From NCBI GenBank assembly GCA_023229785.1, contig JALNYV010000006.1:8695-72694 (forward strand): 64,000 nucleotides of DNA. Reading direction: 5' to 3'. Every line of letters begins with the position of its first letter. Within the stretch, counting starts at the first letter, position 1. Under the pieces are notes generated by a model. The model ran no database searches. It worked only from the letters and a program-made list of their open reading frames with translations, and was not told where the DNA came from. Of the stretch, positions 20,984-64,000 are shown piece after piece. Both the position numbers and the translations under genes were made by a program. Origin of the DNA: Candidatus Dojkabacteria bacterium. Its GTDB lineage: Bacteria; Patescibacteria; Dojkabacteria; SC72.

Positions 20984-21481
20984 TTATAATAATATTTCTT
21001 CAGTGTGCATATCCTCACGAATATTATTTCTAACACTGGTTAGAACTTTTCCCAAATAATTTGAACCCTTCCACAAGTATGGTGGGGTTACAATAGCTGT
21101 CTTAGCATCTAGACCAATACCCCAAATCTTGTCCCATGAAGAAGCCTCCACCAGGATTGTAGTGCCAGTGGCCATTAGCCTTGCCAACAAGGTTGGGTTT
21201 TGTGTGAATTTGGCTTCATTTCCGATATAAACAATCTCAAAACAGTTTTGGTGCCAAGCTTTGGGATCGAAACCAGATACTTTTCTCCCCAACAATTTCT
21301 GCGTCTTGGGGTTTGTTGTTTTCATTATTTGTTGTGATGTGTGGTGATCACCAAAAAGTATTGCCTTTTGATACATCATAAATTGTTCAGCGCAACTAAA
21401 TTCAACATTATCCACAACAAATTTGCTAGGATACCATTGAGAAAATACTCCAGATGAGAAAAAAGTGTATTCTTCATTCAT
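20984..21481 (-). CDS. NADAR-family ADP-ribose-base N-glycosidase
   Basis: 165 aa, full YbiA/NADAR length. FFSSGVFSQWYPSKF, FSCAEQFMMYQKAILFGD, WDKIWGIGLDAK and WKGSNYLGKVL are the family's core motifs. NADAR proteins release ADP-ribose from modified bases, including guanine-linked ADP-ribose placed on DNA by DarT1-type toxins (family knowledge). In a phage this would be a counter-defence or NAD-salvage enzyme. An ADP-ribosylglycohydrolase is at 41745. Confidence 0.85.
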   Translation of the reverse strand: MNEEYTFFSSGVFSQWYPSKFVVDNVEFSCAEQFMMYQKAILFGDHHTSQQIMKTTNPKTQKLLGRKVSGFDPKAWHQNCFEIVYIGNEAKFTQNPTLLARLMATGTTILVEASSWDKIWGIGLDAKTAIVTPPYLWKGSNYLGKVLTSVRNNIREDMHTEEILL

Positions 21482-21830: not shown

Positions 21831-22250
21831 TTATAATAATTTGAGGTGACCTGTTAGAGAGTCCACAACATCGGCTGAAGCCGGACCTACTGCTGCAGCA
21901 GTGATATTTTCAACACCTCCAAATTCAGTTAACCCGTGATCTACGATTAATGAACAAGGAATACCAAGTTGGACAGCTTGATTATAAATATCAACCAACT
22001 CTTGCTCTGAATTAACTACAACAGCTACTTTGGTGTATATACCAGTTATCCAATTACACAATGCATCTTGTCCATCCAAAGGAATTACAAGGTCTTTCCC
22101 ACCAATTGTATTTAATATTTCTCCACAATCTAAAATAGCTTTCAGAGAAGCGTGCGCAAGTTGGACGCATATTTTCCCAGTTCTGACCTTTTGCCCCTGA
22201 GTGGTTCTAAGGTCAGCCCTCCATATTAGCACTTGTTTAGGTTCTCTCAT
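21831..22250 (-). CDS. Peptidyl-tRNA hydrolase 2 (Pth2-like)
   Basis: 139 aa. GKICVQLAHASLKA (about 27-40), VVNSEQELVDIY and IVDHGLTEFGG...AAAVGPA match the archaeal/eukaryotic-type Pth2 fold. The enzyme hydrolyses peptidyl-tRNA released from stalled ribosomes. This is notable beside a phage tmRNA, which rescues the same kind of ribosome. The start overlaps the dUTPase stop by 4 bases (ATGA). Confidence 0.85.
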   Translation of the reverse strand: MREPKQVLIWRADLRTTQGQKVRTGKICVQLAHASLKAILDCGEILNTIGGKDLVIPLDGQDALCNWITGIYTKVAVVVNSEQELVDIYNQAVQLGIPCSLIVDHGLTEFGGVENITAAAVGPASADVVDSLTGHLKLL

Positions 22251-36782: not shown

Positions 36783-37403
36783 TCAGACATCACTTTGTAT
36801 AGGATCTAAAAATACCAATGTTGGACCTCGTGGGGATTTTCTATACATTATGTTGTATTGGTGAATATCTGGCAAATAATGTCGGAATAATGGCTCCAAT
36901 AACCTAAGAGCTTGTCGCAGTGATGCATGTTGGGTTTTTGTAGCTATTTCTTTTCTTAATTCTAATTCATCAAAGGTATACAACAACGTGCTCAAAGTTA
37001 AATCTATATCATTGGGCATAAGGCCAAAAAGATAATACAACAATTTATTATCATCTGGAATCCTATATAATTTCTCCATAGTTATTATTAACACAGATGA
37101 CCCACCCTTATTTTGATATTCTTTGATGGAATATATCTTTGGAAAATGAGGGTTGGTTTGATGATTATGACACAGTCTTAGGAACTGATAACTAGGATCA
37201 GAATCACCGGTAATTCTCACAACCTTAATCACAACATCCTTACCTAATTTACTCGCTTGTTGATAGGCTTTGGCTTGCAAACCCGATACACCAATCTGAT
37301 TCCATTTGTTTGATTGAGGGACTTTAGCTAATACCTTGGTTGATTTATGAATATCACCAATTGGCTTATTCAACTGTTCAGTTACCAAATCTGATAATTT
37401 CAT
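36783..37403 (-). CDS. Protein-kinase-fold protein 1
   Basis: 206 aa, MKLSDL start. KDVVIKVVRITGD gives a VxK ATP-binding strand, VLIITMEKLYRI a hinge, and LPDIHQYNIMYR...LVFLDPI the catalytic-loop and metal-binding counterparts (D-x-H-x2-N and D-P). The catalytic-loop order D-(I/M)-H-x-x-N-I is shared with the paralogue at 37414. Substrate unknown. The two paralogues share GDSDPSYQFLRL. Confidence 0.6.
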   Translation of the reverse strand: MKLSDLVTEQLNKPIGDIHKSTKVLAKVPQSNKWNQIGVSGLQAKAYQQASKLGKDVVIKVVRITGDSDPSYQFLRLCHNHQTNPHFPKIYSIKEYQNKGGSSVLIITMEKLYRIPDDNKLLYYLFGLMPNDIDLTLSTLLYTFDELELRKEIATKTQHASLRQALRLLEPLFRHYLPDIHQYNIMYRKSPRGPTLVFLDPIQSDV

Positions 37404-37413
37404 CTAATGTTCC

Positions 37414-38112
37414 TTAATCTGAACCATATGTACTATGAGTAATGGGATCTACAAACACCCAACTGTTTCCTCTCGTGAGGATATTGCCACTGTGCATATC
37501 AGGGGCAAAGTGCTTGAACAGCGGCTCTAGTAATCTAAGAGCTTGTTTTAATGCAGGGTCTCGCACAAACTGTTGCATGTGCAATCTCCATTTTGGATCG
37601 TTGAATGCTTGTCTAAACTTAATCTCAGCTTGCCTCCTCCATGTTTTCATCCTCTGTGGGATGGGAAAATCTTCTATTCCAAAACGTTCTAAATCTTGTT
37701 CCGTCATTCCAATCAGCGGTTGTAATCTTTCCATAACAACATATAGTGTATATTCAGCTTGATACGGGGCTGGAGAAAATTCTTCAGTTGGATCTATCTC
37801 TTCAAATGACCTTGCCCGTTCATTTCCAAAAACTCGTTCGGTTGGGTACATTTTTACACTAAATATTTTTGGAAAATAAGGATTATCTTGATGTTTTAGT
37901 GCTAATCTGAGGAACTGATAACTAGGATCAGAATCACCATAAACTTGAATAGTTTTAATTACTTTTCCTGGGAATTTCTTATGCAAATAAGCTAAAGATT
38001 GTGCTCCTACCCCAACAACTTGATGTTTTTTCTGGGACAATAGATCATTTACCCGCTTGTTAGAGGTTTTTATATAGGGTGATGATTTATCTAATATCTC
38101 ACTCAACAACAC
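37414..38112 (-). CDS. Protein-kinase-fold protein 2
   Basis: 232 aa, MLLSEI start. GVGAQSLAYLHKKFPGKVIK is the glycine-loop region and Lys, LYVVMERLQPL the hinge, and FAPDMHSGNILTRG...VFVDPITHS the catalytic and metal sites. Paralogue of 36783 with a ~25-residue insertion. Probably co-transcribed with it. Phage kinases can reprogram or inactivate host targets, but this role is inferred. Confidence 0.65.
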   Translation of the reverse strand: MLLSEILDKSSPYIKTSNKRVNDLLSQKKHQVVGVGAQSLAYLHKKFPGKVIKTIQVYGDSDPSYQFLRLALKHQDNPYFPKIFSVKMYPTERVFGNERARSFEEIDPTEEFSPAPYQAEYTLYVVMERLQPLIGMTEQDLERFGIEDFPIPQRMKTWRRQAEIKFRQAFNDPKWRLHMQQFVRDPALKQALRLLEPLFKHFAPDMHSGNILTRGNSWVFVDPITHSTYGSD

Positions 38113-41744: not shown

Positions 41745-42638
41745 TTAGTTTGAATTGTATAATTCATCAAATATTATTCCCAATTCTGTTTTCCAAGCGA
41801 GATTTTTAATCCACCGCTCAGGAATACTTTCATACCCATACAAAGCGCCGGCGAGCTGGCCCGTTACTGCACCAACTGTGTCTGAATCATTAGCTAAATT
41901 TACAGCTAAAATTAAAGCTTCTTCAAAAGAAGAAGTGTTGCTTACTGCCCATAAAGCGGCTTCCCAAGTGTGTATAACATATCCACTAGACTGAACATCA
42001 TCACGAGGAATATTCTTATATTGATCCACATAAACAAAATCATCCCATTTAGCTCCACTAGCTAGATTCCACAAACAGGCGGCCATTTTCCCACAAGTTT
42101 CCACACAATCAAATGAGGCGTGAGTTAGTTTACTCTGTTCTTGTGCGTATGTTATACAATCATACAAGTTATATTTGTAAAATATTGGTATGGGGGCTAA
42201 CCTCATTATTGATCCATTTCCAGATGATGAGGGAGATGTTGAACCAGCCCACGGATTATCAAACTCCATATAATTACGAAGGGCAGCAACTGTGGTTTGT
42301 CCAATGTCAAAACATGTTCCTGTATGTGAATGTTCACCCTCCAACCACCAGTGCACAAAACTATTCATCACATCTGTGGGATTAAAACCCTTGCAAGATA
42401 TTAACGAATCAGCAAGACAAAGGGCCATGCTGGTGTCATCTGTCCACTCTCCAGGTTTTAGATTAAATGGCCCTTTGCCTATCATATCAGTCACTACAGG
42501 ATGAGTGTCTCTGATTTCAAATTCCAACGGAACGCCCAGAGCATCACCTACAGCTAACCCAAAAAAGCACCCCTTTAGTTTATCGTATCTTGGGCAAGGG
42601 GTTTTTGTTGTTGATTTATTAGTTTGTTTTGATATCAA
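41745..42638 (-). CDS. ADP-ribosylglycohydrolase (ARH/DraG family)
   Basis: 297 aa. KLKGCFFGLAVGDALGVPLE (about 22-41), GEWTDDTSMALCLADSL (metal-binding TDDT), SGNGSIMRLAP and NDSDTVGAVTGQLAGALYG carry the full set of magnesium-binding residues of DraG-type hydrolases. They remove ADP-ribose from modified Arg or other acceptors. With the NADAR protein this gives the phage two unrelated ADP-ribose removal enzymes. The start overlaps the upstream gene by 20 bases. Confidence 0.92.
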   Translation of the reverse strand: MISKQTNKSTTKTPCPRYDKLKGCFFGLAVGDALGVPLEFEIRDTHPVVTDMIGKGPFNLKPGEWTDDTSMALCLADSLISCKGFNPTDVMNSFVHWWLEGEHSHTGTCFDIGQTTVAALRNYMEFDNPWAGSTSPSSSGNGSIMRLAPIPIFYKYNLYDCITYAQEQSKLTHASFDCVETCGKMAACLWNLASGAKWDDFVYVDQYKNIPRDDVQSSGYVIHTWEAALWAVSNTSSFEEALILAVNLANDSDTVGAVTGQLAGALYGYESIPERWIKNLAWKTELGIIFDELYNSN

Positions 42639-60546: not shown

Positions 60547-60801
60547 ATGCTAGAACCAGTAACAGGATTTATCGTAGGTCTCACCGCTGCTATTACCATA
60601 GTGGCTGATTGTGTTCCGAAAATTATAGCGGCTGCTGTAATCATTTTAAGTGGATTGTCAACCGCATCTGGTGCAATAACTACAGTTTGGAAACAACCAA
60701 AGGGTAAAGGAATATTAACTAAAATACATAAGTTTATTAATTTTATGGCTTGGAACTTTGGTCATGCTACAAATAAGAATATAGATTCTGGTGGTGTGTG
60801 A
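60547..60801 (+). CDS. Small membrane protein, holin candidate
   Basis: 84 aa from the ATG after AAGGAGTAAGGAAG. Two hydrophobic segments (about 7-22 and 25-45) and a basic C-terminal tail. Immediately upstream of the spanin pair and read from a late promoter, which suggests a lysis role; holin is inferred from size, topology and context. Confidence 0.6.
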   Translation: MLEPVTGFIVGLTAAITIVADCVPKIIAAAVIILSGLSTASGAITTVWKQPKGKGILTKIHKFINFMAWNFGHATNKNIDSGGV

Positions 60802-61313
60802 TGGGCATAAGTGCATACATATACGCCGCTATATTTGCGGTGGGGATGGCTATCGGGGGTGGGGCTGCTTATAAAATAACATATAGTATTCAGCATGCTC
60901 AAGTAGTTAAAATGGAATTAGCAATTGCTAACCAAAAGATTGAAGCTGCTCAAACACTAGCTGTGGAAACTCAAAAGGTTGCTGATGCTACCAACACACA
61001 AGTAAAATTAAATTTAGAAAAGGATAAACTCCATGAAGAACTCATTCAAAATAAAAACGATAGTGTTGTTAAGCTTAATAATTTTATTGCCAGCATGCGC
61101 AGCCAACCAGTCAGTGGGAAGAGTGGTATTGACTCCTCAGTACCAGGTAGCAATACCACTATCAATTCAACAAATGAAACCGAGTTTGTTATTGTATCCC
61201 GAAAACTACTTACGTATCTTGGAGCTGAATCAGCAAGAGCTCAAGTAGATGGTATTGACAAAAACGAGCTTCTTAAATTTGTTATGGTAGATAATTGTGG
61301 TATTCCTAAATAA
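60801..61313 (+). CDS. i-spanin (Rz-like)
   Basis: 170 aa. One N-terminal membrane helix (AIFAVGMAIGGGAAYKITY), then a coiled coil (KMELAIANQKIEAAQTLAVE...) reaching into the periplasm. The ATG shares a base with the previous stop (TGATG). A second gene for a lipoprotein is nested in another frame. i- and o-spanins bridge the envelope and fuse membranes in the last lysis step, which implies a Gram-negative host. Confidence 0.75.
   Translation: MGISAYIYAAIFAVGMAIGGGAAYKITYSIQHAQVVKMELAIANQKIEAAQTLAVETQKVADATNTQVKLNLEKDKLHEELIQNKNDSVVKLNNFIASMRSQPVSGKSGIDSSVPGSNTTINSTNETEFVIVSRKLLTYLGAESARAQVDGIDKNELLKFVMVDNCGIPK
61033..61248 (+). CDS. o-spanin (Rz1-like lipoprotein), nested in i-spanin gene
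   Basis: 71 aa in a different frame entirely inside the i-spanin gene. MKNSFKIKTIVLLSLIILLP then ACAANQ: a signal peptide with lipobox (L-P-A-C), cleaved before Cys22. The mature part is Pro/Gln-rich. Nested Rz/Rz1 organisation is typical of lambda-like spanins. Confidence 0.8.
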   Translation: MKNSFKIKTIVLLSLIILLPACAANQSVGRVVLTPQYQVAIPLSIQQMKPSLLLYPENYLRILELNQQELK

Positions 61314-61326
61314 GGTCAATCACGCG

Positions 61327-61358
61327 TGAGGGAGGGCATAAAAGTACCTTCCCTCATT
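61327..61358 (+). terminator. Hairpin terminator candidate
   Basis: TGAGGGAGG pairs with CCTTCCCTCA (one mismatch), then TTTAT, just after the spanins. Confidence 0.55.
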
Positions 61359-61402
61359 TATCAAACACAGGTAAAACTTAGTAGCAACTTGGAGTATAAA
61401 CA

Positions 61403-61579
61403 ATGATGAGATCATGGTGCAAAATATTACCATTCTTTTTTGTAGAATGGTATGCTAGAAAGTATGGTGAACGATTCAGAACACCTTACTTCAACACACA
61501 AAGAACTATAGTTTCACCTTTCAAGTATTCTGTATTTGTGTTTCCACCAGATGATAAGGATAATAATGAAATTGTATGA
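61403..61579 (+). CDS. Small aromatic-rich protein
   Basis: 58 aa. MMRSWCKILPFFFVEWYARK...SPFKYSVFVFPPDDKDNNEIV. GGAG lies 8 bases before the ATG. The end overlaps the next start by 14 bases. Basic and aromatic; unknown. Confidence 0.5.
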   Translation: MMRSWCKILPFFFVEWYARKYGERFRTPYFNTQRTIVSPFKYSVFVFPPDDKDNNEIV

Positions 61580-62069
61580 GATAGCAAGCAAAAAGGGAAC
61601 GTACGCTGCTGTTAGATTTAGTGATGAGACAAATAAAGCTATTCTCAAATACATTAAAGATAATAAGATTCCCAATGGTTTAAAAACTAAAGATTTGCAC
61701 ACCACACTATTATACAGCAGGAAATTCTTGCCTGATTACAAACCAGGTGGTAAATATGAGAAACCTATGGTTGGTATTCCTACAGAGTTTGATGTTTGGG
61801 AGTCCAATAATGAGGATGGGAATAATACTAATTGCTTAGTTATTAAATATAAGTGTCCTGAATTGACCAAGCACCACAAGCAATTGATGAAGGATCATAA
61901 AGCAACTTTTGATTATCCTGATTATAATTGTCATGTTACGCTATCATATGATATCAAAGACACAGATATTAAAAAGTTACCCAAATTTAAAGATATTGTT
62001 CCAACCATCAACATAATTAGTGAATATGGGGAGGATTTAAATCTTAGTTGGAGCCAAACTAAAAAATAA
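61566..62069 (+). CDS. 2H phosphoesterase, Acb1-like (anti-CBASS candidate)
   Basis: 167 aa, MKLYEI start. Two H-x-T motifs: KDLHTTLLYSRKFLPDY (about 43-59) and YNCHVTLSYDI (about 120-130), with AAVRFSDETNKAILKYIKDN in front. This order (FAAVxxDExTxxxIxxxxxxxxIPNxLKxxDxHxTxxYS) is that of phage Acb1/T4 57B proteins, which hydrolyse cyclic di- and trinucleotides and block CBASS (family knowledge). The ATG after AAGGATAATA was chosen. Identity is good at fold level and moderate for the anti-CBASS role. Confidence 0.75.
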   Translation: MKLYEIASKKGTYAAVRFSDETNKAILKYIKDNKIPNGLKTKDLHTTLLYSRKFLPDYKPGGKYEKPMVGIPTEFDVWESNNEDGNNTNCLVIKYKCPELTKHHKQLMKDHKATFDYPDYNCHVTLSYDIKDTDIKKLPKFKDIVPTINIISEYGEDLNLSWSQTKK

Positions 62070-62075
62070 TATTTG

Positions 62076-62104
62076 TTGCATTACCTCTATTGATGATATA
62101 TAAT
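62076..62104 (+). promoter_or_regulatory. Sigma70-like promoter
   Basis: Plus strand: TTGCAT, 17 bases, TATAAT, 31 bases before the start at 62135. May also supply the tmRNA. Confidence 0.6.
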
Positions 62105-62134
62105 AAAATCAACTTACAATCTTGGAGATGTGAT

Positions 62135-62503
62135 ATGACTCTGGAACAATATATTAAACAAATACAAGAAACGTCTTCAGTTTCTAAAGAGGATCAAGAG
62201 GTTTGGCTCACTGTTAGTGAATCTGCTATTGCTGAGGGGGAAGTGGAAAAATTATCAATCAAAGGATTAATGCAGGTTGTTAGTCAGATCGCGTATAGGA
62301 TTATTACAGATTCCCACATAGGTGTTCAATTGAATATGTCAGATGAAGAATTTGTAATAATGGAAGAAAAAGTACTTCCAGCTCAGAATGAGATTGTGGA
62401 GGTAGCGAGTTTAGGGTCTGGAATTCACCCAGAGGTGATTGAGGAAATGATTGACATTAGATGTGAATATTATTCAGAATTGTATTGTAAATATTTTGGA
62501 TAA
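62135..62503 (+). CDS. Hypothetical acidic protein upstream of tmRNA
   Basis: 122 aa from the ATG after TTGGAG. MTLEQYIKQIQETSSVSKED, all-helical, acidic. Ends 18 bases before the tmRNA acceptor piece. Not SmpB: no matching basic motifs. Unknown. Confidence 0.55.
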   Translation: MTLEQYIKQIQETSSVSKEDQEVWLTVSESAIAEGEVEKLSIKGLMQVVSQIAYRIITDSHIGVQLNMSDEEFVIMEEKVLPAQNEIVEVASLGSGIHPEVIEEMIDIRCEYYSELYCKYFG

Positions 62504-62512
62504 GTTTATTAT
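62485..62512 (+). promoter_or_regulatory. Possible tmRNA promoter
   Basis: TTGTAA, 16 bases, TATTAT, at the end of the 62135 gene, predicting a start near 62519, just at the beginning of the acceptor piece. Confidence 0.4.
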
Positions 62513-62570
62513 TGTATGAAGTGAGGTGGAAATGTGTAAGACGGGGGTTCAAATCCCCCCTCCTCCACCA

Positions 62571-62687
62571 AAAGTGTTTTAGGCTTTTAATATCGTGAAT
62601 TAATGTTAATATGTGTATTGCTTAATATATTAAACAACTATATTATAAGTTAGGAAGCATATATTTACAATCTAGAACACTTTTGAT
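62571..62687 (+). other. tmRNA intervening segment (removed on maturation)
   Basis: AAAGTGTTTTAG at its start pairs with CTAGAACACTTT at its end (one G-U), extending the acceptor stem. This is expected of permuted tmRNA precursors processed by RNase P and tRNA 3' enzymes. Confidence 0.85.
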
Positions 62688-62788
62688 GGGGGAGAAGCTG
62701 GTTTCGATTGCGCAGATAAACAACATGGACAATAGGTGAGATGACCTACCAGATTAGCAATAGTCTATTGGCATAAAATAAAATATTT

Positions 62789-62830
62789 GCAAATGATGCA
62801 TATTATTCTATGGAAGCTCAAGTAGCTTAA
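62789..62830 (+). other. tmRNA tag reading frame
   Basis: GCA AAT GAT ... GTA GCT TAA encodes ANDAYYSMEAQVA. It begins with the A-N-D typical of tmRNA tags. The end is QVA, not the usual (L/V/A)AA. A hairpin GTGAGGTTCATCAC follows. Confidence 0.88.
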
Positions 62831-62872
62831 TCCACAGTGAGGTTCATCACCTTATTACAAGACGATGACTGA

Positions 62873-62896
62873 AGGGGTGTTCACACCCCTTTTTTA
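62873..62896 (+). terminator. Rho-independent terminator of tmRNA
   Basis: AGGGGTG-TTCA-CACCCCT followed by TTTTT. Confidence 0.9.
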
Positions 62897-62903
62897 TGTA
62901 AAC

Positions 62904-62912
62904 TATAAATAC
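62904..62912 (+). promoter_or_regulatory. T4-late-like promoter
   Basis: Plus strand TATAAATAC, 35 bases before the start at 62939. Confidence 0.65.
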
Positions 62913-62938
62913 ATTAAACTACTTTTGAGTGTTACAGT

Positions 62939-63352
62939 ATGCTACTTAAAGAGATAAAAGAAGAAGAACCACAAAGATACAAGCCAGATTGGACTGAAAA
63001 AACTGAAAAGGAGCAAATTGCTATAGTCAACAATGATGGTTTTCAGATCAGAAATATATCAAATCCTTCGTTGGCTGTTCAAATAGCTGCTGTTCATAGG
63101 AATCCTATTGTTATTAGACATCTTCCTGATTCATCAGAAGTGGTGCAACTGTCTGCTATTGCAGATCTACAAGGGTGGGCTATCCAATTTATACACAATC
63201 CAACAACGAAAGTATTATTAACAGCATTAAAGGATCTAAAATTCATCAAAGATGAAGAAGAATATGAAACATTCATTAAACAATATTTTGCTAATAATAC
63301 ACTATTAATGAAAAAATGGCTTAGATATGGTCAAGCGATGAGGGAATCATAA
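62939..63352 (+). CDS. Helical-repeat family protein (IKNPSE repeats)
   Basis: 137 aa. MLLKEIKEEEPQRYKPDWTE, QIAIVNNDG, ISNPSLAVQIAAV, LPDSSEVVQLSAI, cap LLMKKWLRYGQAMRES. Eighth family member in the window. Late-type promoter upstream; stop overlaps the next start (TAATG). Confidence 0.7.
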   Translation: MLLKEIKEEEPQRYKPDWTEKTEKEQIAIVNNDGFQIRNISNPSLAVQIAAVHRNPIVIRHLPDSSEVVQLSAIADLQGWAIQFIHNPTTKVLLTALKDLKFIKDEEEYETFIKQYFANNTLLMKKWLRYGQAMRES

Positions 63353-64000
63353 TGTTGTTGAGAGAAATATTTGCAAATAGACAAGTTACACCACAAGGGA
63401 CTTACGAATATACCCCTGATTTTGAAAAAAGCAAACTGGTGCCCGCTGGTGCAAAAATGGTTGAAGTGAACCCGCACTACGAAGAGGTTGAAATGTTTAA
63501 GAGGTTGGGGTTAGATCCAAAAAAACCCCAACACTTTCCTGTCGTCTATGCTTATACACTAACTAAGAAAGCTGAAAAACCAGAAGAGCAGGAGCATATC
63601 ACAGGATTGATGGATGCTCTCAAAAAACGCAATCCTCAACACACCATGTCTGATGAAAATCTAAATGCTATATACACTAGTGCTTTAAAAAGAATAATGA
63701 AAATGGCTATTCCTACTCACCTCAGCGGTGATGCCAAACAGGGGTTTACCCAATTAAAAAATATACTAAACCATACTGCAGTATCCAAATCTGCTGTTAT
63801 AGTACCAATAGCTTCTAGTTCTCCAGTAGTTCAGATGATGGCTAAAGCAGTGTCTGATGTTACAGGGGCTCCAGTAGTTCAAATGTTCAAGAAAGAGGGG
63901 TGGCCAGAACAATCATCTCATTCATTTACCAAGAGTAGAGGATATGAGCCCCGCGATAACTGGATTAACCCCAAACAGCGAACATTCAACCTAGATAGAG
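63352..64000 (+). CDS. Uncharacterised protein, cut by window edge
   Basis: At least 216 aa, open at the window end. MLLREIFANRQVTPQGTYEY start (shared signature). The middle AVIVPIASSSPVVQMMAKAV followed by TGAPVVQMF could be a phosphoribosyltransferase-like Rossmann region, but the PRPP motif is not seen. Coupled to the 62939 gene. Confidence 0.55.
   Translation, partial: MLLREIFANRQVTPQGTYEYTPDFEKSKLVPAGAKMVEVNPHYEEVEMFKRLGLDPKKPQHFPVVYAYTLTKKAEKPEEQEHITGLMDALKKRNPQHTMSDENLNAIYTSALKRIMKMAIPTHLSGDAKQGFTQLKNILNHTAVSKSAVIVPIASSSPVVQMMAKAVSDVTGAPVVQMFKKEGWPEQSSHSFTKSRGYEPRDNWINPKQRTFNLDR

Follow-up and report, generated by a model that had tools for sequence, protein, structure and literature searches.

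The 64,000-nucleotide window analysed here, taken from contig JALNYV010000006.1 of an assembly deposited as a Candidatus Dojkabacteria bacterium, carries a gene for a circularly permuted transfer-messenger RNA (tmRNA), and judging from its gene content the contig is phage-like. The region 62510-62830 is a full-length match to the Rfam family RF04321 (tmRNA_permuted), with 82.9 bits against a cut-off of 47 and an E value of 2.3e-14 for the whole window. ARAGORN called a permuted tmRNA with the tag ANDAYYSMEAQVA in the window, and made no tmRNA call in 2,000 dinucleotide shuffles of 62400-63000. Together with a locus conserved in two related virus contigs, these results bear out the phage-borne, circularly permuted tmRNA that a first-pass annotation of this DNA had proposed. 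That annotation had also implied novelty, treating permutation as an organellar or bacterial trait and phage genes as one-piece only; this does not stand, since PMC9004378 describes a two-piece tmRNA in the OM43 phage Melnitz and, of 133 unique tmRNA structures from phages, assigns 53 to the two-piece form by ARAGORN. Because permuted phage tmRNA genes are already published, the present locus is a clear further example of a reported type and not a new type.

Structure of the permuted tmRNA gene

A spacer separates the acceptor half of the gene from the coding half that follows it. The parts, all on the forward strand (+), are as follows.

62509-62515 (+): acceptor-piece strand of the outer cross-piece helix, UUAUUGU, pairing with 62729-62735 in the covariance-model structure
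62510-62570 (+): acceptor piece, the 3' part of the tRNA-like domain ending in ACCA, from the RF04321 match; 5' end approximate
62543-62559 (+): T arm, with a 5-bp stem GGGGG/CCCCC and loop TTCAAAT
62560-62566 (+): acceptor 3' strand CTCCTCC, including U70
62567-62570 (+): ACCA, directly after the acceptor 3' strand
62571-62687 (+): intervening segment of 117 nucleotides (nt), predicted to be removed; closing helix 62571-62583/62671-62683, 13 pairs
62688-62694 (+): acceptor 5' strand GGGGGAG, start of the coding piece, pairing 7/7 with 62560-62566
62695-62707 (+): tmRNA D-domain AAGCTGGTTTCGA, from the sequence and RF04321
62708-62714 (+): inner cross-piece helices UUG and GCA, with partner strands at 62537-62539 and 62533-62535
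62729-62735 (+): coding-piece strand of the outer cross-piece helix, ACAAUAG
62789-62830 (+): tag reading frame ANDAYYSMEAQVA and stop codon, from ARAGORN and translation
62871-62892 (+): intrinsic terminator GAAGGGGTGTTCACACCCCTTT followed by a T-rich tail, also the last helix of the beta_tmRNA alignment

Every part named in the first-pass annotation was found where it had been placed or close by. The acceptor stem indeed forms seven pairs of seven, one of them G3-U70, and the intervening segment has the proposed 117 bases. The closing helix is also present, with 13 pairs in the duplex and 15 in the minimum-energy fold instead of the 12 proposed, and the gene reaches slightly further 5' than the suggested start at 62521, as the outer cross-piece helix begins near 62509. 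G3-U70 is the alanine identity pair. The D-domain contains CTGGTTTCGA, ending at 62707. The minimum-energy fold of 62540-62710 includes both the 7-pair acceptor stem and the spacer-closing helix (z = -4.8 against 200 dinucleotide shuffles), and the closing duplex reaches -13.7 kcal/mol, compared with a mean of -3.0 and a best value of -10.2 in 1,000 single-letter shuffles of the window, the only sequence given this control.

The covariance-model check suggested with the first-pass annotation gave a divided answer: the newer merged model RF04321 scores well above its cut-off, but among the older Rfam sub-models the best of the clan, beta_tmRNA (RF01850), reaches 58.6 bits, below its gathering score of 84. 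The relatives L003 and L004 pass this cut-off (95.2 and 94.3). The beta_tmRNA alignment of the window runs from position 52 onward and reaches the terminator at 62892, including the 3' terminal helix. The window also differs in its 117-nt spacer from three bacterial beta-type genes measured, in which the spacer is 24, 30 and 42 nt.

Conservation of the locus and its RNA structure

A DNA ligase scan of virus contigs returned two contigs from other metagenomes, L001 (IMGVR 3300036715; 190,391 bp) and L002 (IMGVR 3300009091; 19,993 bp), whose ligases are 62-63% identical to that of the window. Both carry a permuted tmRNA gene (115.6 and 111.1 bits), and the gene order common to all three is DNA ligase, a small open reading frame (ORF), dihydrofolate reductase (DHFR), Acb1, a second small ORF and the tmRNA. 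In the window the last two protein genes are:

61536-62069 (+): homologue of Acb1, a phosphodiesterase acting against the cyclic oligonucleotide-based antiphage signalling system (CBASS); PF23474, E = 1.3e-31; two genes upstream of the tmRNA
62135-62503 (+): acidic small protein of 122 aa, ATG start with GGAG upstream; directly upstream of the tmRNA

The Acb1 homologues at the same place are 58% (L001) and 63% (L002) identical, and the homologues of the 122-aa protein between Acb1 and the tmRNA show 23% (L001) and 36% (L002) identity. Before the ligase comes thymidylate synthase in both the window and L001; L002 begins inside the ligase. An extra ORF of the window between DHFR and Acb1 (60798-61313) is unmatched in L001 and L002, and about 440 bases separate the second small ORF from the tmRNA call in L002. 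The three tmRNAs share neighbours, strand and beta-type character and cluster in the tmRNA tree with moderate support (89/69, and 94/77 for the pairing of window and L001). The tree holds 101 virus rows, three beta-type rows and two from metagenome-assembled genomes (MAGs); of the sampled bacterial and MAG loci 33 of 38 were unparsed (30/30 alpha, 1/4 beta, 2/2 cyano), and alpha and cyano genes are not placeable in it. The relatives differ from the window in their tags, ANSENYALAA in L001 and ANDENYNVAMVA in L002, and in their spacers of 12 and 89 nt against 117, so that the spacer itself is free to change; L001 also lacks an encoded CCA. In this relative (L001/L003) ACAA stands in place of the expected ACCA, and the CCA end would therefore need completion after transcription. 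The same place across three related phages argues for selection over chance capture, and together with the surrounding phage genes it marks the gene as one of the phage and not of a host.

For a broader comparison, virus contigs were scanned with four patterns that allowed spacers of 91-121, 61-90, 31-60 and 1-30 nt; these returned 16, 78, 16 and 19 stretches, making 128 loci with L012 returned twice. ARAGORN called a tmRNA in 119 of the 128, permuted in 117; our parser accepted 119 of the 128 plus the window, and 97 of these 120 are distinct. All 97 distinct parsed genes, window included, have a 7/7 acceptor stem with G3 opposite U70, where U70 was fixed by the search pattern and at least 6 of 7 acceptor pairs were required by the parser, G3 being free. 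ARAGORN gave a tag for 97 distinct permuted genes, namely 95 parsed genes plus L001 and L002: the tag ends in LAA in 72 and in AA in 86, and the ending QVA occurs once, in the window. The final AA is missing in 11 of the 97, of which four (L008, L034, L079 and L108) may be frame mis-reads by ARAGORN.

Below the tRNA-like domain the two pieces of the window gene pair with each other; in the RF04321 alignment 13 of the 15 cross-piece pairs are standard. In the wider set, each of the six inner pairs is of a standard kind in 83 to 100 of the 100 sequences scored and occurs as several pair types, indicating covariation. The outer helix, scored without alignment (alignment-based scores serve the inner and middle helices only), has at least 6 bp in 79% of 101 cognate half-pairs against 58% of 3,000 random non-cognate pairs; the mean scores are 13.4 and 12.2, with a p value of 4e-10 that is indicative, the non-cognate pairs not being independent. 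The spacer-closing duplex is at or below -8 kcal/mol in 87 of the 89 distinct genes (of the 97, window included) with a spacer of at least 24 nt. As a hallmark of phage genes, however, this helix was rejected, since it also occurs, in weaker form, in the three bacterial beta genes that were parsed (-6.4, -7.9 and -9.0).

Proposed function and alternative explanations

It is very probable that this is a phage permuted tmRNA gene whose two-piece RNA would rescue ribosomes together with host SmpB, adding the tag ANDAYYSMEAQVA to unfinished proteins. What can be read directly from the DNA is the permuted order, the tRNA-like domain with G3-U70, the cross-piece pairing, the tag frame, the terminator and the conserved locus. 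Transcription would run through to the terminator at 62892, and cleavage of the transcript is expected to give two RNAs, an acceptor piece and a coding piece. The 117-nt spacer would be removed by host RNase P and 3'-end RNases, whose target would be the hairpin that draws the halves together. The host alanyl-tRNA synthetase would charge the RNA with alanine, and host SmpB and host proteases would be used. The most likely benefit would be that ribosomes are kept available during infection, when mRNA decay, caused by the phage or by RNase-based defences of the host, would yield many non-stop messages. It is plausible, as far as sequence can tell, that the phage supplies its own ribosome rescue. 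Additionally, a PTH2-type peptidyl-tRNA hydrolase, two RNA ligases and a NADAR domain protein encoded in the window would fit a phage that tends translation and counters defences.

Several observations weigh against a working gene of this kind. The window gene scores below both syntenic relatives (82.9 versus 115.6 and 111.1 bits) and sits on a long branch of the tree (0.67). Two of the four pairs in its middle helix are non-standard, and this helix is weakly kept in the wider set as well (standard in 20 to 61 of 98-100 sequences). Among non-cognate partners, 7 of 100 and 19 of 100 equal its own outer helix, which is therefore not decisive alone. The tag ends in QVA, against the LAA of 72 of the 97 genes. 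Finally, SmpB had no Pfam match in the 47 scanned of the 78 window ORFs of at least 100 aa, the window being part of a genome, and was absent from 12 of 12 virus records with a permuted tmRNA, records that may themselves be fragments. The scanned ORFs comprise 17 plus a set of 30, of which 20 were also scanned singly; for the set of 30, 25 of 29 families were listed, and the other four match one member each with E values weaker than 0.0058.

The unusual tag end leads to the alternative of a decoy or modulator, in which the phage RNA would sequester host SmpB or provide a poorly degraded tag, dampening or redirecting host trans-translation instead of adding to it. The 11 genes without a final AA, allowing for the four possible mis-reads, would agree with this. 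However, the window has a full tag frame and stop, unlike DS6A, and L001, its nearest row in the tree, has the ordinary end ALAA; most viral tags end in LAA, which suggests ordinary tagging. We regard a decoy as unlikely.

The low covariance-model score relative to the syntenic genes, the long branch, the two non-standard pairs and the QVA end could also mark a decaying pseudogene, a copy of a host-derived tmRNA kept by chance. Against this, the 7/7 acceptor stem, the 5/5 T stem, G3-U70, the inner helices and the tag frame are all intact, and the gene keeps the same place in two diverged relatives whose tags have changed and are nevertheless intact. A pseudogene is accordingly quite improbable.

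In a third explanation the gene is a regulatory sensor: the phage would read tmRNA abundance or stalled ribosomes as a signal, for instance to start lysis, and tagging would be a side effect. A passage in PMC7162821, citing a review, says that phages sense the host state via tmRNAs and can trigger lysis once stalled ribosomes are numerous. On the other hand, a search of 61000-64000 gave no match above cut-off to a riboswitch or any other family of regulatory RNA, and the flanking ORFs lack a lysis-family match: 62090-62503 matches nothing, and 62939-63352 on the other flank matches PHROGs of unknown function only. We give this explanation very little credence. That a bacterial tmRNA was misassembled onto a phage contig, for which one could cite only that the window is a single contig, is next to impossible given the same gene order in two virus contigs from other metagenomes.

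Comparison with known tmRNA genes, host inference and genomic setting

Melnitz, a myophage, and related marine myophages resemble the window in carrying a permuted ssrA that ARAGORN calls, according to PMC9004378, in which upkeep of the host translation machinery is proposed as one possible role. The Melnitz gene is alphaproteobacterial-like and has a glutamine riboswitch; in the window, by contrast, beta is the best sub-model, no riboswitch was matched, the spacer is 117 nt long and closed by a hairpin, and Acb1 is a neighbour. Among other sources, PMC11915505 puts the unique bacteriophage tmRNA sequences of the current database at 79, PMC7162821 describes huge phages with tmRNAs and SmpB, and PMC12595487 treats the host tmRNA as an integration site. 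A section of PMC4131195 lists ten phages with ssrA; mycobacteriophages (Bxz1 and others) and Bacillus phage G resemble the window in encoding a tmRNA. The window gene is unlike those of the mycobacteriophages and phage G in its permuted order. We take the mycobacteriophage (Bxz1 and others) and phage G genes to be one-piece.

The Xanthomonas phage XacN1 is like the window in being a large phage with a beta-type permuted gene and related DNA ligase and head protein. It differs in having two equal-scoring copies (AP018399 37231-37530 and 356026-356325; L145), the tag end DYALAA, a GOLLD RNA after the tmRNA and other neighbours. At its first copy, the tmRNA and the following GOLLD RNA (227 bits, L145 2840-3253) are unannotated in the record. 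Two tRNAs with a CUA anticodon lie near this copy. The Sinorhizobium phage Phosso has an alpha-type permuted gene with a spacer of about 410 nt (PV764938 349596-350198; L146) that ARAGORN misses. By eye, this spacer holds a long complementary copy of each acceptor strand, so that the precursor could fold another way. RAS14 and Atu_ph07 gave no permuted tmRNA match. DNA searches of phage records with the window or L001 tmRNA gave no match along the gene: one returned short pieces only, covering at most 10% of the query among the matches listed, and another returned none. Among the papers listed, titles and abstract openings showed no beta-type permuted tmRNA in this phage group and no tmRNA adjoining Acb1, Acb1 and tmRNA never having been searched jointly.

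In bacterial genomes, the permuted model exceeded its cut-off in 131 of the 142 sampled from the class of an Azospirillum. It did so in 5 of 150 genomes sharing their order with a betaproteobacterium, a Thauera, and in 2 of 117 sharing their phylum with a Synechococcus. Under strict filters, scoring was limited to 14 to 18 candidates per genome, and these counts may therefore be low. One of the five in the Thauera order is one-piece by ARAGORN, leaving 4 of 150 confirmed, Thauera included. The same pattern applied to genome contigs, with a spacer of 61-91 nt, gave 52 stretches, of which ARAGORN called a tmRNA in eight and a permuted one in two, both on metagenome-assembled contigs; in virus contigs with a spacer of 61-90 nt it called 75 of 78 permuted. 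As the virus and genome collections differ in size and make-up, this comparison is a lead and not a measured ratio. Viruses may be the main carriers of this permuted sub-form. Three genome contigs (L166, L172 and L178) with 6/7 acceptor pairs by the parser had no ARAGORN call and were counted as chance. A MAG contig, L169, has one-piece and permuted tmRNA calls side by side, overlapping.

The first-pass annotation had further suggested that the tmRNA hints at the host lineage. Beta is the best sub-model, yet we dropped any host inference from the subtype, because XacN1 carries a beta-type permuted gene and few of the sampled betaproteobacterial genomes have one. In a Pseudoxanthomonas genome the tmRNA gene is one-piece; Pseudoxanthomonas and Xanthomonas are kindred genera. 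The caution to be drawn is that a phage's host is not readable from the form of its tmRNA.

The window thus adds a well-supported, diverged example to the phage permuted tmRNAs, and its Acb1 neighbour offers a concrete idea of when a phage needs ribosome rescue. Acb1, the small ORF and the tmRNA stand in a row, with PTH2, the RNA ligases and NADAR elsewhere in the window. We suggest, tentatively and with considerable doubt, that the beta-type permuted tmRNA is a mainly virus-borne lineage travelling with phages independently of the host tmRNA form, and that here it belongs to a counter-defence and translation-upkeep set that reverses the ribosome stalling due to RNase-based defences of the host. 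A general linkage with Acb1 was rejected, only the window, L001 and L002 having Acb1: it was found (E 1e-3) in none of L005-L132, where ORFs of at least 60 aa were searched and some loci offered only 1-4 kb of DNA. A scan of virus contigs for Acb1 relatives returned one contig, already in the set. Acb1 relatives are labelled 'RNA ligase' or gp57B in several of 30 phage records listed. The 122-aa ORF has no Pfam or PHROG match; a protein search returned, besides the ORF itself, a single 89% homologue on a contig of 6,873 bases, and a virus contig scan found no relatives of that homologue.

The phage-like character of the contig is read from its genes. The window encodes a member of the T4-type head protein family phrog_138, the two RNA ligases, an NAD-dependent DNA ligase, homing endonucleases and an endolysin, along with thymidylate synthase, DHFR and PhoH (Pfam). 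The nearest annotated phages, all large, show low identity: head protein and ligase point to XacN1 and Stenotrophomonas CM1/RAS14, and the ligase also to Sinorhizobium Phosso and Agrobacterium Atu_ph07. The PTH2-type hydrolase lies at 21831-22250 (-) (PF01981, E = 8e-24), the NADAR domain protein at 20984-21481 (-) and an ADP-ribosylglycohydrolase family member at 41745-42638 (-); the last two are possible counters to ADP-ribosylating defences. Two adjoining genes at 36783-38112 (-) are related to phrog_15752, a phage protein kinase family inhibiting host transcription. The motif TATAAATA, which we take to be a T4-like late promoter box, occurs shortly upstream of the tmRNA in L003 (G001) and about 280 bases upstream in L004. 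The window has 15 copies on both strands, and the sole one within 61901-62960 is at 62904, past the terminator.
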